Positions 9,347 through 43,106 of a stretch of 64,000 nt of DNA are shown here, piece after piece. The notes beneath the pieces are model-generated. The model was not told the DNA's origin. It saw only the letters and a list, made by a program, of their open reading frames with translations, and searched no databases. Source of the stretch: Streptomyces erythrochromogenes (GTDB taxonomy: Bacteria > Actinomycetota > Actinomycetes > Streptomycetales > Streptomycetaceae); NCBI RefSeq assembly GCF_036170895.1, contig NZ_CP108036.1, positions 8,281,501-8,345,500 on the forward strand, read 5' to 3'. Made by a program: the position numbers and the translations under genes. Positions within the stretch are counted from its first letter, which is position 1, and each line of letters opens with the position of its first letter.

Positions 9347-10783
9347 ATGGACAGCGAGTCGGTGGAGAACCTGCTGGCGCTACTCAAGCAGGCCGCCGAA
9401 CTGCCGGCGGAGGACGCGCAGCGGCGCCGCATCGAGGGAGCCGCCAAGAACCTCCTCCGGCGCGGCCGTCGCGATCGCAGGGCCCGAGCACGCGTAAGGG
9501 ACCGGGAGTTCGACGCCGCGCTCCTCGCCGCCACCGTCACCGGATCACGCGACCGGATCATGGACACCGCCCTCCCCACCCGGCTGCCCGGCCCGCAGCA
9601 GCTGACAGAAGCCGGACCCGACTCCGAGCCGTCCGCAGGCGGGCCGACGGCCGCCGCGCAGAAGCCGGCGGTCCTGGGCACCCTGCGCCGCGGTCAACGG
9701 TGCTACATCTGCAAGGACCATTACAGGGAAGTGCACCCCTTCTACCACCACCTGTGCATGACCTGCGCCACCTCCAACCTCGACCAGCGCACTGCACGCA
9801 CCGACCTCACCGGACGCCGCGCGCTGCTGACCGGCGGCCGAGTCAAGATCGGCCACGAACTCGCCCTGATGCTGCTGCGCGACGGCGCCGACCTGACCGT
9901 CACCACCCGCTTCCCCCGCGATGCCGCAGCCCGATTCGCCGCCGCCCCAGACCGTGACCGCTGGTGGAACCGGCTGACCGTAGCCGCGCTCGACCTGCGG
10001 GACCCGCGGCAGGTACTGGCCTTCACCGAGCAGGAGTTGGCACGCGCCCGCCCGCTGGACATCCTCATCAACAACGCAGCCCAGACCCTGCGCCGCGCAC
10101 CCGAGACATACGCGGCCCTGGCCGCCACCGAAGCGGCCGGGCTTCCGGCCGCACGTCACTGGGTGGCCCCGGGCTTCGTCGTGCCCGGCCATCCCCACCG
10201 CGCCCTGACCACAGGCGGCACCCCGGCCGCGACCGCACTCGACATACCCGCGGACACAGGGGGCGCGGTCGATGCGGCAGGACTGCTGCCCGATACCGCC
10301 CCGATGAACTCCTGGACCCTGCAGCTCGGCCAGATCAGTGCCGCGGAACTCATCGAGGTGCAACTCGTCAATGCCGTCGCCCCGTTCCTTCTCGCCGACC
10401 GACTGCTGCCGCTGATGGAGGCTTCGCCCCACCCCACCCGCTACCTGATCAACGTCTCGGCGGTGGAGGGCCAGTTCGGCGCGCTCAACAAGTCGCCCGA
10501 CCATCCGCACACCAACATGGCCAAGGCCGCCCTGAACATGCTCACCCGCACCAGCGCCTCCGCTCTCGCCTCACGGGGAATCCACTGCTGCTCAGTCGAC
10601 ACCGGCTGGGTCACGGACGAGAAGCCCGCAGCCGCACGGGCGCGACACGCAGCGACAGGATGGAGGCCTCCGCTGGACGTCGTCGACGGCGCGGCACGTA
10701 TCTACCACCCCATTCGCGAGGGTGAGGCGGGCCGGCCCCTGCACGCGGTGTTCCTCAAGGACTACCGCCCTGCAGCCTGGTAG
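9347..10783 (+). CDS. SDR-fold protein with Cys/His-rich N-terminal domain
   Basis: The product has 478 residues from ATG 9347 (GTG 9329 is an in-frame alternative). Residues 1-100 are helical and charged. Residues about 120-145 hold a Cys/His cluster (CYICKDHYREVHPFYHHLC, then C-A-T), probably a zinc site. A short-chain dehydrogenase fold follows: TGRRALLTGGRVKIGHELAL (nucleotide binding), DILINNAAQT, and RYLINVSAVEGQF. The usual catalytic YxxxK is replaced by N-M-A-K in HTNMAKAALNMLTRTSASAL, so the Tyr is missing. TGWVTDEKP follows. The fold is clear, but classical oxidoreductase activity is doubtful. The gene stands alone. Confidence 0.8.
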   Translation: MDSESVENLLALLKQAAELPAEDAQRRRIEGAAKNLLRRGRRDRRARARVRDREFDAALLAATVTGSRDRIMDTALPTRLPGPQQLTEAGPDSEPSAGGPTAAAQKPAVLGTLRRGQRCYICKDHYREVHPFYHHLCMTCATSNLDQRTARTDLTGRRALLTGGRVKIGHELALMLLRDGADLTVTTRFPRDAAARFAAAPDRDRWWNRLTVAALDLRDPRQVLAFTEQELARARPLDILINNAAQTLRRAPETYAALAATEAAGLPAARHWVAPGFVVPGHPHRALTTGGTPAATALDIPADTGGAVDAAGLLPDTAPMNSWTLQLGQISAAELIEVQLVNAVAPFLLADRLLPLMEASPHPTRYLINVSAVEGQFGALNKSPDHPHTNMAKAALNMLTRTSASALASRGIHCCSVDTGWVTDEKPAAARARHAATGWRPPLDVVDGAARIYHPIREGEAGRPLHAVFLKDYRPAAW

Positions 10784-11124
10784 CCGTACAAGGCCGAGGT
10801 GAGGTGCTCGACCTCCTGTAGCCGGTATCGCCCGGTCACGTCACATTGCCTGAGGTGATCAGGTCGCCCGGAAGCAGCCGGTCTGGTGGTCGAGGGCCGG
10901 ATCGGTGGGACCGCAGTGCAGTACGCCGATCCTGGGCCAGACGGTGACGGGATCCTAAGGGCTGCTGCGAAAGGGCTGGTCACGGGCTATGACCTGGTGC
11001 GCAAACTGGGTAGCTCCCCAGTTTCCGGCACGGGTATCGTCCGGTTGCAGACCGGCCGTACCAGCGGCCTCCCGGATTCGGAGACCGGCCTCGAGGAGCT
11101 GGCCCTGGTCCGCGAGCTGAACTG
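10784..11124. other. No recognisable gene
   Basis: Short open frames only. The plus-strand text around 11040-11110 (IVRLQTGR and SETGLEELALVREL) may be the decayed upstream part of the fragment at 11125, but the frames do not join. Confidence 0.3.
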
Positions 11125-11280
11125 GCGCGCTTGGCCGCCTCGGCGGAGTTCTTGAGCCGGTACCCCGTCCAGCAGGCGGGCGGGCGCACGATCATCGAGT
11201 TGTGGGTACCGGCCGAGGAGCTGGACGACTTCAACGCTCACACTGTCGGCGAGATCCAGGTGGTCCACGAGTTTCGCTGA
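11125..11280 (+). pseudogene. C-terminal fragment of a small conserved protein
   Basis: The frame ending at TGA 11278-11280 reads LARLAASAEFLSRYPVQQAG, then TIIELWVPAEELDDFNAHTV and GEIQVVHEFR. This composition looks like the C-terminus of a real protein of about 80-150 residues of unknown function. There is no start codon or ribosome binding site in that frame, so it is a 5'-truncated remnant. A hairpin follows immediately. Confidence 0.5.
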
Positions 11281-32210: not shown

Positions 32211-32381
32211 TCAGGTCAGGGCGTCCTTGGCCTTCTGGCCGGCTTGCTTGGCGTCAGCCGCCGTCTGTTCGGCCTTTCCCTTCAGCTCCAGGCTCTCGTT
32301 ACCGACGGCCTTGCCGGCCGTTTCCTTGACTTTCCCCTTCACGCTCTTTCCGGTGTTCTTGATCTTCTTACCCGTGGCCAT
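32211..32381 (-). CDS. CsbD-like stress protein
   Basis: This 56-residue, Lys/Ala-rich protein shows the CsbD pattern (KSVKGKVKETAGKAVGNESL, ELKGKAEQTAADAKQAGQKA). The family is small, hydrophilic and induced by general stress; its biochemical role is unknown. GGAGGTGAGC precedes the ATG. It closely resembles the protein at 42933, with the shared core GKAVGNESLE-KG. A SigB-like promoter lies 50-76 nt upstream. Confidence 0.88.
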   Translation of the reverse strand: MATGKKIKNTGKSVKGKVKETAGKAVGNESLELKGKAEQTAADAKQAGQKAKDALT

Positions 32382-32433
32382 CCTGCTCACCTCCGTGCCC
32401 TCACCCATGCCGCTGCCCCGTCTCCCACCACCT

Positions 32434-34422: not shown

Positions 34423-34593
34423 ATGGGCGCTGGTGAGAAAGCGAAGGCTGAGATAGAGCGAGTTGCGGGAAGGGCTGTAAAGAAAGCAGCCCATGCCATG
34501 GGTAAGGAGACGCTGGCCGCCAAGGGCGCAGCTCTGGAAGCCCGGGGCAATGCCCGGCGCGTCAAGGAGAAGGGCAAGGATGCGTTGAGTTGA
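34423..34593 (+). CDS. CsbD-like small stress protein (second type)
   Basis: This is a 56-residue Lys/Ala-rich helical protein (MGAGEKAKAEIERVAGRAVK, KETLAAKGAALEARGNARRV, ending KDALS). GGGGGCG lies upstream of the ATG. It resembles the protein at 50214 more than the CsbD proteins at 32211 and 42933, so the window has two subtypes. It lies 132 nt upstream of the GlsB-like gene. Confidence 0.75.
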   Translation: MGAGEKAKAEIERVAGRAVKKAAHAMGKETLAAKGAALEARGNARRVKEKGKDALS

Positions 34594-34647: not shown

Positions 34648-34725
34648 GGCTCGATGGCTGCGACAATAGCACGGAATCGGAATTAGGTTGCATCGCTCAT
34701 TTATGTGACGAGACAGGAAGGGATC

Positions 34726-34989
34726 ATGGGCATACTTGCTTGGATTCTTATCGGGCTGTTCGCGGGCATCATCGCCAAAATGCTGATGCCCGGGAAGGAC
34801 CCGGGCGGCATTATCGTCACCATATTGATAGGCATCGCGGGCGGCCTGCTCGGTGGGTGGCTCGGTAAGGTGATTTTCGGAGTCGACTCCGTTGACGGCT
34901 TCTTCGAGATCTCGACGTGGGTCGCCGCCATCGTCGGCTCCCTCATTCTCCTCGGCGTCTTCCGCCTTTTCAGGAGTGCTAGGCACTAG
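34726..34989 (+). CDS. GlsB/YeaQ/YmgE-family membrane stress protein
   Basis: The product has 87 residues with AGGAAGGG upstream of the ATG. It has three hydrophobic helices: MGILAWILIGLFAGIIAKML, IIVTILIGIAGGLLGGWLGK and WVAAIVGSLILLGVFRLF. This is the transglycosylase-associated/GlsB family of small membrane proteins linked to general stress. The codons are slightly less GC-rich than the neighbours. A clear terminator follows. Confidence 0.9.
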   Translation: MGILAWILIGLFAGIIAKMLMPGKDPGGIIVTILIGIAGGLLGGWLGKVIFGVDSVDGFFEISTWVAAIVGSLILLGVFRLFRSARH

Positions 34990-35604: not shown

Positions 35605-35967
35605 CTACACGGTGCGCGTGACGGTGACCACAACGGTGACGCCCGCCGCCCTGCCTTGTTGGGCCAGGTGGGAGATGATGGCCGTCCGCACGCTTTCGCG
35701 GACCCGTCGGGCGACGTCGACGACGCGGTGGTCCTTGTCCAGGATGCAGCGCACCTCCACGTGCCAAACGCCGACCGGGGTGAGTTCGCAGCGGACACCG
35801 GCCGCCTCGGGGTGCCCGGTGGCACCTGCGGCCACGGCTTCGTACATGCGGGAGGCTGCGAGCGCCAGCCGGTCGGCGAGCGCGGGCTGGAGAGCGAGTA
35901 CGCCGGGTACGTCGAGGGCGGCCCGGGCTGCCGCTCGGTGGAGGTTCTCGCGGTGGGAGGCGTTCAT
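35605..35967 (-). CDS. Asp23/Gls24-like envelope-stress protein
   Basis: The 120-residue product starts at ATG 35967, overlapping the upstream stop (ATGA). The text DVPGVLALQPALADRLALAA, VWHVEVRCILDKDHRVVDVA and RRVRESVRTAIISHLAQQ matches the Asp23/Gls24 fold: strands followed by a long helix. Asp23 proteins gather at the membrane through AmaP-type anchors in firmicutes and answer cell-wall stress. This is the third gene of the minus arm sigma - zinc-finger/Asp23 - Asp23. Confidence 0.75.
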   Translation of the reverse strand: MNASHRENLHRAAARAALDVPGVLALQPALADRLALAASRMYEAVAAGATGHPEAAGVRCELTPVGVWHVEVRCILDKDHRVVDVARRVRESVRTAIISHLAQQGRAAGVTVVVTVTRTV

Positions 35968-36650
35968 CGTTCGCTCAGTTCGCACCGCTCGTCACCATGC
36001 ACGCGGGGGGCTCCCAGTACGGCGTTGACTTCCACGTCGACGGTGGTGACGGCGAGACCGAGGACGTGTTCGGCCGCGTGGAGGACGGCTTGGCGTACTG
36101 CCTCGGCCCGCCCTCGCAGCGGCTGGTCGAGCGTGGCTGCCACCGTGATGACGACGATATGGACGGCCTGGACGTGGGCGTCTTTCGCCGTGGCCACGCG
36201 GCAGCTGGCGGCGCGGACGCCGGGGACGGTGTCGGCGGCCCGACGCAGCACCTTCGCGGCCGCGCTCTCGGCGATCCGCAGGTCGTGATCGGGGTCGTCG
36301 AGCAGCAACATGGTGCCGAGCCGTACCTCGCTGCGGACCGCATTGATGACACGTGTGGCGAGGCGGTGACCGTCGGGTTGTTTCTCGCCGCGCAGAGCAC
36401 GGGTTGCCCGGTCCAGGGCTGTCAGCCCATCGATGGCCTCGCGGCAGTGGGGACAGCGGCTGCTGTGCGGGTCTGCTGCGCCGGCCGCGCTGCGGGCCTG
36501 TTGCCAGGCATGCCCGAGGGGGCGCCCGCAGGGCAAAAGTTCCGCACCCGCCAGCAGCTCCGCGTCGGGATGTAGCGACGCTTCAGCCGCTACGGCGTGC
36601 ACGCCTGCGGGCTCGTCGCCTGAGGCGGGGTGCGGGTCGTCTAGCGCCAT
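35964..36650 (-). CDS. Zinc-finger/Asp23 fusion, putative anti-sigma factor
   Basis: The product has 228 residues; ATG 36650 overlaps the sigma-factor stop by 10 nt. Residues 1-75 include LLPCGRPLGHAWQQARS and H-S-S-R-C-P-H-C (PHSSRCPHCREAIDGLTALD), resembling the H-x3-C-x2-C of zinc-binding anti-sigma domains. Residues 95-220 are Asp23-like (LATRVINAVRSEVRLGTMLL, VRQAVLHAAEHVLGLAVTTV). Being second in an operon behind an ECF sigma gene is the classic place for an anti-sigma factor. The combination with an Asp23 domain suggests the envelope scaffold itself controls the sigma factor. That role is inference. Confidence 0.75.
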   Translation of the reverse strand: MALDDPHPASGDEPAGVHAVAAEASLHPDAELLAGAELLPCGRPLGHAWQQARSAAGAADPHSSRCPHCREAIDGLTALDRATRALRGEKQPDGHRLATRVINAVRSEVRLGTMLLLDDPDHDLRIAESAAAKVLRRAADTVPGVRAASCRVATAKDAHVQAVHIVVITVAATLDQPLRGRAEAVRQAVLHAAEHVLGLAVTTVDVEVNAVLGAPRVHGDERCELSER

Positions 36651-37285
36651 GGGCGCATCGCCTCCATCAGAGCGCGTCGTGCGCGAAAGAGTCTGCCGCG
36701 CACCGTTTGTTCACTGCTGCCCACCACGTGGGCGATCTCTTCGTAGTGCAGGCCGTGCAGTTCCCGCAGCACCCAGCACACCCGGAGCTCGGGGCCCAAT
36801 GCCAGGAGCGCTTGCGTCAGGGCGGCTGCTGCCGCGTCCGTCTCGGCCACCTTGGGTGGTGAGCTGTTCGCATCCACGGCAGCCGGTTCGGGGACGGTGT
36901 CCAGGGGCAACGGATGGGGCCGGCGGCGCAGAGTGTTGAGGCAGCGGTTCGTCACGATGCGATACATCCAGGTGCTGAACGAGGCACTGTGCCGGAATTC
37001 CGGCAGCCGCCGCCAAGCGCTGATGAAGGCGTCTTGGACCGCGTCCTCTGCGTCTGCTCGGTTGCCGAGCAGATGCTGGGCGAGGGCGAGCAGGCGGCTG
37101 CTGTGCCGGCGGACCAGGACGGCGAAGGCGTCTTCGTCCCCTTCCGAGGCTCGTATCGCCAGCACGCTGTCGTCCAGTGCGCCTACAGCGTCCTGCTCCG
37201 TGGCGACGCCGCCGATCGGCACCGCTACCGGTCGCAGGGGGAGGTTTGCGCCAGGCTGGCGGGAGGGGTCGGTCCGGTTGCGCAT
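36641..37285 (-). CDS. ECF-type RNA polymerase sigma factor
   Basis: The 214-residue product starts at ATG 37285; upstream in-frame ATGs lack a ribosome binding site. Region 2 is FAVLVRRHSSRLLALAQHLL, NRADAEDAVQDAFISAWRRL and SFSTWMYRIVTNRCLNTLRR. Region 4 is LGPELRVCWVLRELHGLHYE and EIAHVVGSSEQTVRGRLFRA. It is followed without a gap by the zinc-finger/Asp23 gene and is divergent from the larger Asp23 operon, which is a likely target. Confidence 0.92.
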   Translation of the reverse strand: MRNRTDPSRQPGANLPLRPVAVPIGGVATEQDAVGALDDSVLAIRASEGDEDAFAVLVRRHSSRLLALAQHLLGNRADAEDAVQDAFISAWRRLPEFRHSASFSTWMYRIVTNRCLNTLRRRPHPLPLDTVPEPAAVDANSSPPKVAETDAAAAALTQALLALGPELRVCWVLRELHGLHYEEIAHVVGSSEQTVRGRLFRARRALMEAMRPWR

Positions 37286-37448
37286 CGGCCACTCGCTTCC
37301 TGCCGAAGACACTCGTTGCGGCCTGCTAGGTACTCCTCGATGGTAGGCGGGCTGCCCCGCACGAGCCGCGTGAGGAATGTCCACGCGAGGTGTCCTAAGC
37401 ATGAGGGCGCCGCACCGGCGCCCGGACATTCACCCTGGGGAGGTCCTC
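37286..37448. promoter_or_regulatory. Divergent promoter region of the Asp23/sigma module
   Basis: These 163 nt must hold promoters for both arms. The plus side has GGGGAGG 4 nt before ATG 37449. A GGAAT block at 37374 is a possible ECF-type -35, but no convincing -10 is spaced from it. Confidence 0.4.
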
Positions 37449-37928
37449 ATGTCGGACACCATCAACCCCACCTCAGGCGGAGGCGAGTCACGTCCTGCGG
37501 GCAAGGCCCTCGCGGGCCCCACCGGCGCCGGAACCGCACCCGAGTCGCGGGGCAAGACGACCATCGCCGACAGCGTGGTGGAGAAGATCGCAGGAATGGC
37601 CACCCGCGAGGTGCCGGGCATCCACAGCCTCGGCTCCGGCATGGCCCGCACGCTCGGGGCGGTGACCGACAAGGTCCCCGGCGGCCGTCCCAGCGTGAGC
37701 CGCGGCGTGAAGGTCGAGGTGGGCGAACGGCAGGCCGCCATCGATCTCGACGTCGTCGTGGAGTACGGCGTCGCCATCGTGGACATCGCCGCCGACGTCC
37801 GTACCAGCGTCATCACGGCGGTCGAACGCATGACCGGCCTTGAGGTCGTCGAGGTGAACATCGCCGTCGACGATGTCCACCTGCCCGACGAGGAGGACGA
37901 CCAGGAAGGCGAGGGACGCGTGCAATGA
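37449..37928 (+). CDS. Asp23/Gls24-family envelope-stress protein
   Basis: The product has 159 residues. After a Gly/Pro-rich N-terminus of about 40 residues comes the Asp23 fold: TTIADSVVEKIAGMATREVP, GVKVEVGERQAAIDLDVVVE, VDIAADVRTSVITAVERMTG and LEVVEVNIAVDDVHLPDEED. The C-terminus is acidic. It is the first and most canonical Asp23 gene of the plus arm, and its 3' end is within 66 nt of the next gene. Confidence 0.9.
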   Translation: MSDTINPTSGGGESRPAGKALAGPTGAGTAPESRGKTTIADSVVEKIAGMATREVPGIHSLGSGMARTLGAVTDKVPGGRPSVSRGVKVEVGERQAAIDLDVVVEYGVAIVDIAADVRTSVITAVERMTGLEVVEVNIAVDDVHLPDEEDDQEGEGRVQ

Positions 37929-37990
37929 CTCCTCGCAGCCCCCGGACTCGGCGGCCGCGAAACAACCGACGCGAAATTCAGGTGAGTGAA

Positions 37991-38170
37991 ATGAGCGCAG
38001 CAACTGTGGGCCTGCTTGCCGGCATGGCCCTTGGCTTCGCCGCATTTTTCGGCGGCTTCTGGGCGTTCCTGCTCGTGGCGTTCCTGGGCCTGGTGGGCCT
38101 GATCATCGGCCGCATGTTGCAGGGTGACCTGGAGCTGTCCGACTTCACGCGTTCCCGGAACCGGCAGTGA
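37991..38170 (+). CDS. Small membrane protein of the Asp23 operon (DUF2273-like)
   Basis: The 59-residue product starts at ATG 37991. Two hydrophobic helices (TVGLLAGMALGFAAFFGGFW and AFLLVAFLGLVGLIIGRML) are followed by a polar tail (QGDLELSDFTRSRNRQ). Small two-helix proteins of this kind accompany Asp23/AmaP genes. It overlaps the next gene (GTGA). Confidence 0.8.
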   Translation: MSAATVGLLAGMALGFAAFFGGFWAFLLVAFLGLVGLIIGRMLQGDLELSDFTRSRNRQ

Positions 38171-38571
38171 CCCCGCAAGCTGAGCCTGCGCCGCACGGGG
38201 GTGCGGCAGCCCCCACCCCGCCGGTGCTACCGGCGGCCGAACGGGGGGCCACGGTGATCCCGGACAAGGTGGTCGCCCGCATCGCGGCCCGCGCCGCAAA
38301 AGAGGCACTGGCCACGCACACGGACACCTCGATCGCTCACGCGAAACTGGCCGGTCCACGCGCCTCGGCCACCGTCGGCAGCGGCACGGCCCGGTTGGGA
38401 CTGACTCTGGACCTGCCCTACCCGGCGGACCTCGCCGGCGTCTCCCGTCGGCTGCAGGACTACGTCAGTGAGCGGGTGGCTCATTTGACCGGTATGCGCG
38501 TCACAGAAGTCACCCTTGCCATCGAGCACCTGATTCCCGCCGAGGGCCTGGAGCACCGCCGCGTGCAGTGA
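38167..38571 (+). CDS. Second Asp23/Gls24-like protein of the plus arm
   Basis: The 134-residue product starts at GTG 38167. It has a Pro-rich N-terminus, then IPDKVVARIAARAAKEALAT, ASATVGSGTARLGLTLDLPY, LAGVSRRLQDYVSERVAHLT and MRVTEVTLAIEHLIPAEGL. It is more divergent than the first Asp23 protein but has the same strand-helix order. Confidence 0.82.
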   Translation: MTPQAEPAPHGGAAAPTPPVLPAAERGATVIPDKVVARIAARAAKEALATHTDTSIAHAKLAGPRASATVGSGTARLGLTLDLPYPADLAGVSRRLQDYVSERVAHLTGMRVTEVTLAIEHLIPAEGLEHRRVQ

Positions 38572-38606
38572 ACCGGACCGCATTCCCACCGGGAAGGAGA
38601 GCCGGC

Positions 38607-39254
38607 ATGGAACGCGAGCAAGATCCCCTGGCCGAGAAGGGGCCCACCGAGACGGACGAGGCCACCTACCGCACGGTGGGGCTGCTGGACGAGCGGCCTC
38701 CGGCCAGACCACATTCTGCTGCGCGGCGCCCATGGTCCGCGCGCCGTATACCCGCCGCGCTCACAGCCCTGATCATCGCGGTCGCGGCGGGATCCCTCCT
38801 GTTCGACGTCATCAGGGTCCGTGCCGGCCAGGCCGCCGCAGGCTGGCGCATACGGCTGGCCGACGAACTGGCTGCCCGCCCGCTGGATGACCCGGCGCTA
38901 CAGATCGGGGCCGCCGTCATCGCCGTTATCGGCCTCTGGCTGATCATCCTGGCCCTGAGCCCGGGCCTTCGCCACCAGCTGCCCCTTGAGACTCCCGACG
39001 CGGAGATGCGCGCCGTACTGGACCGCGAGGCCGCGGAACTGAAGCTGCGGGATGCCGCGATGCGCGTCCCCGGGGTCAGTGCTGCCAAGGTCCGGTTCTT
39101 CCGGCATCGCATCAAGGCGCGCGCGGATGTGCGATTCCGCGCCCCCGTCGACGTCAAGGCCGATCTCCTGGTCGCTCTGCAAGAGGCCCTCGACCGGCTC
39201 GACCTCGCACGCCCTCCGTCGCTGGACGTCCGGGTACGCCCACGTCACAAGTAG
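38607..39254 (+). CDS. DUF6286-like membrane protein
   Basis: The 215-residue product starts at ATG 38607 behind GGGAAGGAGA; an upstream GTG at 38568 overlaps the previous stop but has a poorer signal. Two membrane helices (ALTALIIAVAAGSLLFDVIR and IGAAVIAVIGLWLIILALSP) are followed by a cytoplasmic domain of about 90 residues (LRDAAMRVPGVSAAKVRFFR, RVDVKADLLVALQEALDRLD type text). This matches the DUF6286 proteins that sit between Asp23 and AmaP genes in streptomycetes. It probably takes part in anchoring or organising the Asp23 layer. Confidence 0.8.
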   Translation: MEREQDPLAEKGPTETDEATYRTVGLLDERPPARPHSAARRPWSARRIPAALTALIIAVAAGSLLFDVIRVRAGQAAAGWRIRLADELAARPLDDPALQIGAAVIAVIGLWLIILALSPGLRHQLPLETPDAEMRAVLDREAAELKLRDAAMRVPGVSAAKVRFFRHRIKARADVRFRAPVDVKADLLVALQEALDRLDLARPPSLDVRVRPRHK

Positions 39255-39301
39255 TAACGCCGGTGATGTCCGCCGCCGAGCAGAAGACAGAAGGGGATCC
39301 G

Positions 39302-39904
39302 ATGAAAAGGAAATCCGCAGTCAACCGAGTTCTGCTGGCCGTGGCAGGCTTTGTCCTACTCGGCACAGGCCTCATGATCCTGGCGGGTGCCTTCGACCTT
39401 TATCGACGCTGGTCACTGGCACCACCCGACGGCTGGCCCCTTGCCACTCCCCGCGATGTCCTGCTCGCTGACGCCGACCGTACCCGCTGGGCAGACGAAG
39501 GATGGTGGTGGCCCGCAGTCATCGCCGTTTTGGCCATCGTCACCCTGCTCGCCGTGTGGTGGCTGCTGGCGCAGCTGCGCCGCACTCACCCCGGCGCCCT
39601 GTCCGTGGGCGGAGCCCACGCCGTTGATGGAGTGGAACTGCGCGAGGGTGCCCTCGGCGACGCTCTGGCCGCCGACGCCCGGCACCTGCCCGGTGTTCAC
39701 CAGGCCCGCGCACGAATGGACGGCTCGTCGAGCCGTCCCGAAGCCCATGTCGCCCTCACCCTCACACCCGACGCCGAGCCCGGCCCCGTCCTGCAGGCGC
39801 TGCGCGACGGGCCGCTGGAACGCGCCCGCCGGTCCACGGACCGGACGCTGCCTGCGAGGGCGCACCTGCGGTTGACCCAGCACAAACCCCACCGTGCCCA
39901 ATAG
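39302..39904 (+). CDS. amaP: AmaP-like Asp23 membrane anchor
   Basis: The 200-residue product starts at ATG 39302 with AGAAGGGGATC upstream. An N-terminal helix (VLLAVAGFVLLGTGLMILAG), a short external loop and a second helix (WWWPAVIAVLAIVTLLAVWW) form a hairpin, followed by a cytoplasmic domain (ELREGALGDALAADARHLPG, VHQARARM, HVALTLTPDAEPGPVLQALR). In firmicutes, AmaP holds Asp23 at the membrane. It ends the operon, 83 nt before the IS481 insertion. Confidence 0.8.
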   Translation: MKRKSAVNRVLLAVAGFVLLGTGLMILAGAFDLYRRWSLAPPDGWPLATPRDVLLADADRTRWADEGWWWPAVIAVLAIVTLLAVWWLLAQLRRTHPGALSVGGAHAVDGVELREGALGDALAADARHLPGVHQARARMDGSSSRPEAHVALTLTPDAEPGPVLQALRDGPLERARRSTDRTLPARAHLRLTQHKPHRAQ

Positions 39905-39987: not shown

Positions 39988-41043
39988 TGTATTGATCACG
40001 AGCGTTGTTGACACTCGGCAGGTCTTGAACATGGCGAAGACCTCCGGTGTGGTGGGAGCTGTCTAGGAACCCATTGCGCGACGGAGGTCTTCGTGTCCCA
40101 CCGTAATGCCCGGCTGACCGTCTTCGGTAGGCGACTGCTGGTTGAACGTGTCGCATCGGGCCGTCCGATCGCCCATGTCGCCGCCGAGATGGGTATATCG
40201 CGGGCCACCGCCCACAAATGGGTGCGGCGGTGGCGGACCGAGGGCGAGGCCGGCCTGGCCGATCGGTCCTCCCGGCCGCGGACAACCCCGCACCGAACTG
40301 CCGCCGCGATCGAGGCCCGAGTGTGTGACCTGCGGCGGGACCGCAAGCTCGGCCCCGCCCGGATCGGCCCCATCGTGGGCCTGCCCGCCTCGACCGTCCA
40401 CCGCATCCTGACCCGGCACCGCCTGCACCGACTCGCCTGGATGGACCGCCCGACCGGCACCGTGATCCGCCGCTACGAACGCGACCGGCCAGGCGAGCTC
40501 ATCCACGTGGACGTGAAGAAACCGGCCGGATACCCACCGGCGGCGGCCACAAGGCCCTGGGCCGCGAAGCCGGCCGCAGCAAGAAGTCCGGCGTGGGATT
40601 CGACTATGTCCACTCCGCAGTCGACGACCACAGCCGCCTGGCCTACAGCGAGATCCACCCCGACGAGAAGGTCGCCACCTGCGCAGACTTCCTCGCCCGC
40701 GCCGCCGCGTTCTTTCACACTCAGGGCATCACCCGCATCGAACGCGTCCTCACCGACAACGCGTGGGCCTACCGCAAGGGCCTGGCCTGGAAGGCCGTCC
40801 TGAGCGACATCGGCGCCGCCGGCAAGCTCACCCGTGCCTACCGGCCCCAGACCAACGGCAAGGTCGAACGCTTCAACCGCACCCTGCTCGAGGAATGGGC
40901 GTACCTACGGCCCTACACCTCCAACGACGAGCGGACAGCAGCCCTGGCAGACTTCCTCCACACCTACAACCACCACCGCTGCCACACCGCACTGGGCGGA
41001 CACCCGCCCATCAGCCGCGTGAACAACGCTGCGGGTCAATACA
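39988..41043 (+). mobile_element. IS481-family insertion sequence with intact target duplication
   Basis: The element is 1056 bp and starts TGTATTGATCACGAGCGTTG, ending with the inverted counterpart GCGTTGTT-type block (41018-41043, ...GGGTCAATACA). It is flanked by a perfect 6-bp direct repeat, ACTAGG, at 39982-39987 and 41044-41049. TG...CA ends and a 6-bp duplication fit the IS481 family. The transposase is interrupted by a single-base frameshift, so the copy is probably inactive on its own. Confidence 0.88.
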
Positions 41044-41048
41044 ACTAG
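40093..41048 (+). pseudogene. IS481-family transposase, one frameshift
   Basis: The first frame has the N-terminal helix-turn-helix (RLLVERVASGRPIAHVAAEM, GISRATAHKWVRRWRTEGEA), then RPGELIHVDVKK. At about 40523 one base is missing, and the second frame continues GFDYVHSAVDDHSRLAYSEI, RVLTDNAWAYRKGLAWK and YRPQTNGKVERFNRTLLEEW. The DDE triad is recognisable: D in HVDVKK, D in LTDNA, E in VERFNR. The reading frame crosses the element's right end, and its stop codon TAG (41046-41048) lies inside the target-site duplication. Confidence 0.88.
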
Positions 41049-41101
41049 GCCCTGTCCGATGGGTCGGGTGACTCGTCTGCAGGTGGATCGTTTCGAGTCT
41101 T

Positions 41102-41980
41102 ATGGGGCGGGGCGATCCTTCGGATAACGAGTGGGCTTCGTTGGAACCACACCTGCCAAAGAACCACGGACGAGGCGGGCGTGGGCAGTGTCATCGCAGA
41201 GTGATCACGGGATTCTGTGCCGGCAGCGGACCGGCCTCCCTTGGAGGGACCTGCCGCCGAGCTTCGGGAATTGGAAGACGGTTCATGGCCGTCATCGCAG
41301 GTGGTCAGCGGACGGAACATGGGAGAAGGTCCTGCGGGCGATTCAGGCCGCGGCCGACGCTGAAGGCCGGATCGGCTGGAGCATGGTCAGCGTGGACTCC
41401 AATTCCTGCCGCGGCCATCAGCACGCAGTAGGCGCTCGCTCAAGCCCAGCAAGAATCCCGGGAGAGCACAGCAGATCGGCCCAGCACCGAGTGGATGAGG
41501 CCCTGGGGCGTTCACGGGGTGGACTGACTTGCACGATCCACCTGGCCGGCGAGGGCGGGCGGCGCCCGCTCGCCTTCATCATCACACCCGGTCAGTGGGG
41601 GATGCCCCGCAGATGATCCCGTGCTTGAGCAGATCCGAGTTCCTCGGCCAGGCGGTGGACACCCACGCACTCAGCCCGACCACCTCGGTGGAGACAAGGC
41701 CTATTCCTCTCGCCGCAACCGTCATTACCTGCGGCGACGCCAGATCAAGCACATCATTCCGGAGAAGCGGGACCAACGCGCCAACCGCCGACGCCGAGGC
41801 AGCAAGGGCGGCCGACCGACCGGCTTCGATTGGGCGATCTATCGGCGTCGCAACGAAGTGGAGCGGATGATCAACCGACTCAAGAGCTTTCGAGCCGCGG
41901 CGACCCGCTACGACAAGAGAGCCTACGTTTTCCACGGCACGGTCACCGCTGCCGTGATCCGAATGTGGCTCCGCTCGTAG
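41102..41980 (+). pseudogene. IS5-family transposase, multiply frameshifted
   Basis: Pieces in three frames give a transposase of about 290 residues: MGRGDPSDNEWASLEPHLPK, RTGLPWRDLPPSFGNWKTVH, AEGRIGWSMVSVDSNSCRGH, GGLTCTIHLAGEGGRRPLAF, then RNEVERMINRLKSFRAAATR and YDKRAYVFHGTVTAAVIRMW. At least two indels (about 41160-41200 and about 41600-41620) break it. The stop at 41978-41980 is only 7 nt from the end of the convergent gene, so the usual 3' tail and inverted repeat are missing there. Confidence 0.85.
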
Positions 41981-42881: not shown

Positions 42882-42932
42882 GGGCTGAGCAGGCTTGTAC
42901 TGCCGAGCGCGAGCTGCCGGGAGGTGAGAGAA

Positions 42933-43106
42933 ATGGGCGCAGGTAAGAAGGTCAAGAACGTCGCCAAGACGACCAAGGGCAAGGTGAAGGAAACCACGGG
43001 CAAGGCAGTGGGGAACGAGAGCCTGGAGGCCAAGGGGCAGAGGGAGCAGATGCTGGGTGATGCGAAGCAGACAGCCCAGAAGGCCAAAGACACACTGAAG
43101 CACTGA
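42933..43106 (+). CDS. CsbD-like stress protein
   Basis: This 57-residue Lys-rich protein reads MGAGKKVKNVAKTTKGKVKE, TTGKAVGNESLEAKGQ and KDTLKH. GGGAGGTGAGAG precedes the ATG. It is a near-twin of the protein at 32211. It is followed by a perfect 34-nt palindrome that separates it from the convergent gas-vesicle-associated genes. Confidence 0.9.
   Translation: MGAGKKVKNVAKTTKGKVKETTGKAVGNESLEAKGQREQMLGDAKQTAQKAKDTLKH

Follow-up and report, generated by a model that had tools for sequence, protein, structure and literature searches.

The eight-gene module studied here lies at positions 35605..39904 of a 64,000-nucleotide stretch of the Streptomyces erythrochromogenes genome (the window, whose coordinates are used throughout), and it places an extracytoplasmic function (ECF) sigma factor next to Asp23-type proteins. 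We abbreviate the genes and their products as S (the ECF sigma factor), F (a fusion protein), B, A1, and A2 (Asp23 or Asp23-like proteins), M (a membrane protein), D (a DUF6286 protein), and P (an AmaP-like protein). S, F, and B follow one another on the minus strand, with overlaps of 10 bases between S and F and 22 bases between F and B, and A1-M-A2-D-P run divergently on the plus strand. All eight genes were found in the order and on the strands given by an earlier note on this DNA. The window covers 8.28 to 8.35 Mb of an 8.50-Mb contig, near one end, and is most likely part of a Streptomyces chromosome arm.

S (36641..37429, minus strand; maximal frame of 262 amino acids) matched the Pfam families Sigma70_r2 (74.1 bits) and r4_2 (40.0 bits), both above their cut-offs, and no region 3 family was among the six Pfam matches listed. 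The presence of regions 2 and 4 and the absence of region 3 place S among the ECF sigma factors (sigma70 group IV), and it matched ECF sigma factors in the PDB with E-values down to 7e-26. That the module has a sigma factor of its own, as the earlier note had held, is supported. The start of S is uncertain. In relatives, matches set in somewhere from residue 39 to residue 89 of the 262-amino-acid frame, and an annotated relative has 198 amino acids, so the start is probably nearer 37240 than 37429.

F (35964..36650, minus strand, 228 amino acids) is a putative anti-sigma factor. Its N-terminal part carries the zinc motif C41-x20-H62-x3-C66-x2-C69 (about 36444-36530), a ZAS-type Cys..His-x3-Cys-x2-Cys motif in a gene adjoining a sigma gene, and the three cysteines are invariant across 17 aligned F sequences (window included). 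The C-terminal part is an Asp23/AmaP/DUF6286-like domain (about 36027-36302). Profile matches to this domain were weak in the window protein, with Asp23 at 13.7 bits and DUF6286 at 15.9 bits (Pfam) and AmaP at 23.7 bits (NCBIfam), all below cut-off, and were better in relatives; in the 17-sequence family that includes the window, DUF6286 matched 14 members and Asp23 matched 13 at E-values of at most 1. Against the PDB, the zinc part matched 3hug_B with an E-value of 0.0028, third after two C2H2 finger proteins. This chain was deposited as a membrane protein, and we take it to be RslA, the anti-sigma factor of SigL. The Pfam family zf-HC2 matched just 2 of 37 members, with an E-value of 0.019 at best. 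No transmembrane-like segment was seen in F, whereas M, D, and P do have hydrophobic segments. The description of F as a zinc-finger/Asp23 fusion is supported in that a zinc motif of the anti-sigma type is joined to an Asp23/AmaP-like domain. The zinc finger itself is a motif, and it reached no Pfam zinc-finger family at its cut-off.

The remaining genes are a third minus-strand gene and the plus-strand operon. B (35605..35985, minus strand) encodes a small soluble Asp23-like protein of 126 amino acids (Pfam Asp23 E-value of 0.0016, 19.2 bits, below the cut-off of 28), and it adjoins F in many sigma loci. A1 (37449..37928, plus strand) is an Asp23 protein that passed the family cut-off with 107.1 bits. 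M (37925..38170, plus strand) is a small membrane protein with a hydrophobic segment; it is DUF2273-like at 24.9 bits, below the cut-off of 25.4, and its start is probably an inner ATG at about 37991, judged by eye. A2 (38167..38571, plus strand) is a second Asp23-like protein, with 25.9 bits to Pfam Asp23 (below the cut-off of 28) and 126 bits to a family profile that was built in this analysis and includes A2 itself. D (38568..39254, plus strand; DUF6286, 98.8 bits) and P (39263..39904, plus strand) each have two transmembrane-like segments. P, a membrane anchor by type, reached 50.2 bits with the NCBIfam AmaP model, short of the cut-off of 55, and is therefore named AmaP-like only; a homologue of P on a named plasmid carries the annotation AmaP.

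To place this arrangement, 150 genomes of the Streptomycetaceae were searched with F, and 77 had a match. The best 79 of the 103 matches listed (window included) were taken with their neighborhoods and annotated by profiles; the 24 weakest, one of them inside locus L132, were left out. S adjoined F in 37 of the 79 F-type loci. A1 lay in the same stretch in 35 of these 37 and was divergent in 29, with 2.8 kb between the divergent S arm and A1 in L049. Conservation of gene order was a check that the earlier note had named, and these counts confirm it. The idea that all Asp23 loci carry a sigma factor was rejected, since 42 of the 79 surveyed loci are without S.

The zinc motif tracked the sigma gene. 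It was intact in 34 of the 37 S loci (33 by script and L046 from reading the sequence), 29 with H-x3-C-x2-C and 5 with the shorter form H-x2-C-x2-C (L058, L061, L063, L066, and L132); L057 and L060 do not have it, and the F of L101 is broken. None of the 42 F-type loci without S had the motif. Because the F-position proteins of sigma-less loci start, by eye, roughly at the helix next after the zinc part, the latter has the appearance of a separable unit. Half of the S-less loci (21 of 42) have F and a B-like domain in one open frame. Among S loci, frames are fused between A2 and D in seven (L047, L048, L049, L051, L052, L053, and L062), and in L062 the fusion also takes in P.

The genome of the window holds further copies of each half of the module. 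A second S-F pair lies at C1:817717 (L035), with an F 46% identical, and no A1 operon was found in the 14 kb inspected there. A second A1-M-A2-D-P operon lies at C1:6237232 (L036, not counted among the 79 loci as it has no F); neither S nor F was found in the 15 kb inspected, and no element of the kind described below lies upstream of its A1 (best score, -4.2). A single-protein scan found only seven Streptomyces loci, and the nearest named relatives found were S. lavendulae and S. avidinii, both of which have close copies of the module. Plasmid searches by protein gave five relatives; the whole module of one, 77% identical, is carried by a linear plasmid. A sigma/Asp23 module with all eight genes sits on the 583-kb linear plasmid of Streptomyces sp. 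NBC_01276 (L203), and the 202-kb linear plasmid p1 of S. longhuiensis (L204) carries such a module as well. Because they are found on linear plasmids, sigma/Asp23 modules can probably travel.

Upstream of A1 we identified a bipartite element, GTGAGGAA-N12-GTGTCCTAA, at 37370-37398 on the plus strand, which we predict to be the sigma-dependent promoter of the A1 operon. It ends 50 bases before the A1 ATG. A start of A1 at 37377 was rejected: GGGGAGG stands just before 37449 and 37377 falls within the promoter element, for which reasons the start is most likely 37449. The promoter matrix was trained on 27 A1 upstream regions, with A1 starts chosen among candidates by start codon and upstream purines, and it gives GTGACGAT-N12-GTGTCCAAC. 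The two blocks are spaced 12 to 13 bases apart in all 27 trained regions, and in 21 of them the element ends 40 to 55 bases before the chosen A1 start. The window element scores 22.2 bits, or 20.8 bits when left out of training. In a leave-out test in which each locus and its near copies were removed, 26 of 27 sites outscored all of 100 shuffled versions of their region (L037 passed by 0.1 bit; L051 failed). Shuffles of the first 40 stretches gave three matrix matches in 1.1 Mb.

At a threshold of at least 13 bits, 30 of the 35 S loci that also have A1 showed an element upstream of A1, whereas none of the 42 S-less loci did; the best score among the latter was 4.6. Eight of the 35 had no part in training; five of these passed (L044, 16.0; L049, 13.1; L058, 17.1; L066, 23.2; and L132, 21.4 bits), and three scored below 13 bits (L061, 10.3; L063, 12.3; and L101, 1.5). 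The element also precedes A1 in all seven named Streptomyces relatives, which are close kin. We consider direct sigma control of the plus-arm operon, as the earlier note had supposed, to be probable from this conserved promoter-like element. The S-facing strand, which was never in training, reached 13 bits in 7 of 27 loci (L048, L050, L052, L053, L055, L062, and L065). In the window it scored 2.7 bits, and the best among the window and 11 close relatives was 4.2. Since its S-facing strand is without the element, S in the window is not autoregulated through it. Two-sided control by this element was rejected for the window: control of the plus arm is retained as probable, and control of the sigma arm is not supported.

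Four loci also have the element at the start of a gene for a STAS-domain protein: L058:6129-6530 (13.2 bits), L061:7735-8049 (27.7 bits), L064:4740-5153 (19.7 bits), and L066 at about 10774-11148 (22.6 bits). The STAS family was above its Pfam cut-off in three of the four, and in L058 it was recognized by a profile built in this analysis. All four lie in one 19-row group of the F tree described below. Because the element stands at the start of these genes, the sigma factor may make an anti-anti-sigma-like protein in these loci.

We then asked how exclusive the element is within whole genomes. The pattern GTGASG-N14-GTGTCCWA, which was written with the window site in view, has the A1 promoter site as its sole exact match in the 8.6-Mb genome of the window. 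A second scan covered 31 other sigma-carrying whole genomes with GTGASG-N14-GTGTCCAA and gave 12 exact matches in 10 genomes, compared to 1 match in the 31 genomes for the reversed-pattern control. The exact pattern is strict, as it is absent from 21 of the 31 genomes. Eleven of the 12 matches lie in the module, seven before A1, two before S, and two before a STAS gene at the module edge; six of the 11 are training sites and five are not. The only exact match outside the module was at G148:C1:2599484-2599511 (minus strand). Training on A1 regions is not able to produce this near-absence of the element elsewhere in genomes.

A tree was built from the Asp23-like domain of F, with 102 rows, 128 columns, a midpoint root, and many unresolved forks. 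It holds 41 of the 42 sigma-less loci, and these 41 rows form one clade (Shimodaira-Hasegawa-like approximate likelihood ratio test [SH-aLRT] support of 99), which under the midpoint root is nested among S-bearing rows (moderate support of 92 and 85). Because of this nesting of a single clade, the sigma factor, the zinc part, and the promoter were most likely lost together once. L127, which has no sigma factor, zinc part, or element, may be a second loss; it sits on a long branch and its placement is unsure. It was left out of the first tree (score below 70) and included in the second, and L101, L167, and L183 are in neither; the broken F of L101 was excluded from the F alignment. L068 has a sigma-like frame in another part of its stretch; in the tree it was assigned manually to the sigma-less rows.

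The module also extends beyond the family. A 17-row F profile was run against 296 genomes of the class, and 107 genomes matched; many of these matches cover the Asp23-like half only and may be other Asp23 proteins. We took 20 places from 18 genomes, selected for a match that extended into the N-terminal half of F. S accompanied F in all 20 (in L167 as one open frame), which is not a random sample because the places were chosen by that reach, and A1 was present in 18. The A1-side element scored at least 10 bits in 12 of these 18 and at least 13 bits in 8, compared to 15 matches at 10 bits in 653 kb of shuffled sequence. In the single frame at L167:5603-6580 (minus strand), sigma regions 2 and 4 are continuous with the Asp23-like domain of F, and the zinc part is absent. 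As the A1-side element was not found there and sigma region 2 looks altered by eye, the sigma factor of L167 may be decayed.

Taken together, we believe that sigma factor and anti-sigma factor form a self-contained circuit at this locus, that the circuit is built on an Asp23 envelope scaffold, and that its main target is the scaffold operon; we assign this reading a probability of roughly 0.7. At rest, F would keep S inactive, with the zinc motif at its N terminus as the sigma-binding part. The Asp23/AmaP-like domain of F would sense or join a scaffold of A1, A2, and B together with the membrane proteins M, D, and P, and a change in the state of the scaffold or the membrane would free S. Freed S would then transcribe A1-M-A2-D-P from 37370-37398, and the output of the switch would therefore be the structure that it monitors. 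The sign of the feedback could go either way, since binding to the scaffold might lock F on S or pull F off S. We infer from the sequence that F binds S, that S reads the promoter, and that the Asp23 domain is the sensor, and any kind of stress assigned to the circuit would have the same footing. The gene content and order, the close association of S with the zinc motif and the element, the near-exclusiveness of exact matches of the element to the module, and the joint absence of S, motif, and element in one clade are observed.

A bolder version, which we regard as possible but doubtful, makes F an exchangeable subunit of the scaffold, its Asp23-like domain joining A1, A2, and B in a lattice beneath the membrane. 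How much sigma factor is free would then depend directly on the condition of this lattice, and the lattice operon would be almost the sole target of the sigma factor. If this is true, the scaffold would be the sensor, the inhibitor platform, and the product of a closed loop, with no need for a protease or a membrane-spanning anti-sigma factor.

Several observations weigh against the circuit as we propose it. L047, L051, L061, L063, and L101 are below threshold upstream of A1 (L047 has a 20.3-bit site farther upstream), as are 6 of the 18 loci with A1 outside the family at 10 bits, and the window and its close relatives are without the S-facing element. At 13 bits, 9 of 40 loci have matrix matches within the S gene, and seven more matches lie away from the starts of A1, S, and STAS genes. 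With up to two mismatches allowed, the window genome has 96 pattern matches, and the reversed control has 67; from this difference the regulon may be somewhat wider, and we claim no wide regulon. Since the sigma-less loci are about one clade, the contrast between loci with and without S amounts to approximately one evolutionary event. The match of the zinc part to 3hug_B is weak, and ordinary C2H2 fingers score equally well or better. L057 and L060 keep S and the promoter without the zinc motif, and L177, L178, L180, L181, and L182, outside the family, are without zinc ligands yet keep S; in these five, the remaining N-terminal part of F still aligns by eye.

These last loci bear directly on the main rival, which is redox sensing by the zinc motif. 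S and F would be an ordinary zinc redox pair of the RsrA/RshA type for thiol or metal stress, with the Asp23-like domain only a stabilizing or localizing appendage and the scaffold merely a member of the regulon. According to the relevant passage of PMC8999054, soluble ZAS anti-sigma factors normally answer oxidative stress, and F, with its C..H-x3-C-x2-C layout, cysteines invariant in the 17 aligned sequences, and lack of a transmembrane-like segment, has the look of one. However, the five loci just named keep S and F without zinc ligands, L057 and L060 do so without the motif, and all seven retain the Asp23-like domain (a condition of being found with F). That some relatives have lost the zinc ligands and keep the S-F pair argues against zinc as the sole sensor. 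Of the 12 exact matches, 9 stand ahead of A1 or S and 2 ahead of STAS genes, with no redox gene among these 11. We judge a plain redox pair to be unlikely.

The same two loci, L057 and L060, where the zinc part is missing though S and the promoter stay, could be taken to mean that F is a scaffold subunit and not an anti-sigma factor at all. Control of S would then come from its own transcription or from a different protein, and the zinc motif would have some other role. The S-facing element, found in just 7 of 27 divergent loci, leaves room for other control of S, but the zinc part tracks S (34 of 37 loci versus 0 of 42), F comes directly after S and overlaps it in the window, and the two share one open frame in L167. 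We hold this explanation to be more improbable than a redox pair. A further question is whether the bipartite element is a promoter read by S or the site of another regulator, a reading compatible with the other rivals. The -35 consensus of ECF sigma factors is GGAAC, and the -35 half of the element (GTGACG) is unlike it. The spacing of 12 to 13 bases in 27 of 27 regions, the position 40 to 55 bases before the A1 start in 21 of 27, the presence of this sequence ahead of S as well in certain loci, and its absence at 13 bits upstream of A1 in the 42 S-less loci all argue for a promoter, and we consider a foreign regulator the least probable of these alternatives.

Stress genes of the CsbD-like and GlsB-like types lie around the module in the window, at 32211-32387 (minus strand) and at 34423-34593, 34705-34989, and 42924-43106 (all plus strand). 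Such genes are close to the module in 13 of 107 stretches in total (window included), among them L173, L175, L176, L180, L181, and L182 outside the family. Two of them are possible satellite genes. The GlsB-like (Transgly_assoc) membrane protein at 34705..34989 (plus strand; Pfam, 36 bits) has counterparts near the module in L184, L185, L175, L182, and L051. The CsbD-like protein is encoded at 42924..43106 (plus strand; Pfam CsbD, 54.5 bits); a CsbD gene stands close behind P in L184, L185, and L186, and in the window transposase-like frames intervene. These frames form two stretches at 40093-41980 and look like later insertions; in both S. lavendulae and S. avidinii, the CsbD gene comes closely after P.

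Part of this arrangement is already in print. A 2022 review (PMC8999054) describes, in its passages on the subject, the sigma groups ECF286 and ECF292 of Casas-Pastor et al. 2021, and it names ECF286 beside Asp23-family predicted anti-sigma factors, with the mechanism listed as unknown. Its ECF286 example is WP_003983642.1 of S. rimosus, and the review describes experimental data as lacking. Like these groups, our locus has a Streptomyces ECF sigma gene next to the gene of a soluble, putative anti-sigma factor of the Asp23 family, although F of the window matches Asp23 only below cut-off, and for this reason we file it, by gene context, as a probable member of the predicted ECF286-like kind. 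The earlier note knew of no experimental description of such a circuit. This agrees with the passages of PMC8999054 cited here, and no experimental study of such a sigma/Asp23 anti-sigma pair was seen in searches that cover only open-licence PMC papers; the pairing itself, however, had been published as a prediction. New in this analysis are the fused zinc motif, the target promoter, the local regulon, and the coupled loss; unlike our locus, the ECF286 passages of PMC8999054 name no fused zinc motif, target promoter, or A1-M-A2-D-P target. According to the pertinent part of PMC9769785, an Asp23/Gls24 gene of S. venezuelae is down after ethanol shock.

How Asp23 functions and how the underside of the membrane is sensed are open questions in bacteria. 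A conserved actinomycete module would offer a read-out here, with a dedicated sigma factor and a short, nearly unique promoter element. The predicted target promoter makes the circuit testable, and a reporter would show the stimulus of the scaffold and test ECF286.

Two known systems resemble the locus in part. RsrA, RshA, and ChrR are soluble zinc anti-sigma factors, and F is like them in being a soluble protein with H-x3-C-x2-C whose gene comes immediately after that of an ECF sigma factor. Unlike them, F has an Asp23/AmaP-like C-terminal domain, and the zinc ligands are lost in some of its relatives. In Staphylococcus aureus, the asp23 operon is controlled by SigB. There, as described in the corresponding passages of PMC6954212, Asp23 is tethered by AmaP beneath the membrane and can form filaments, and the locus is like this scaffold in holding Asp23 and an AmaP-type anchor in one operon. 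It differs from the S. aureus system in having an adjoining dedicated ECF sigma factor with a fused putative inhibitor, as well as extra Asp23-like and DUF6286 members.

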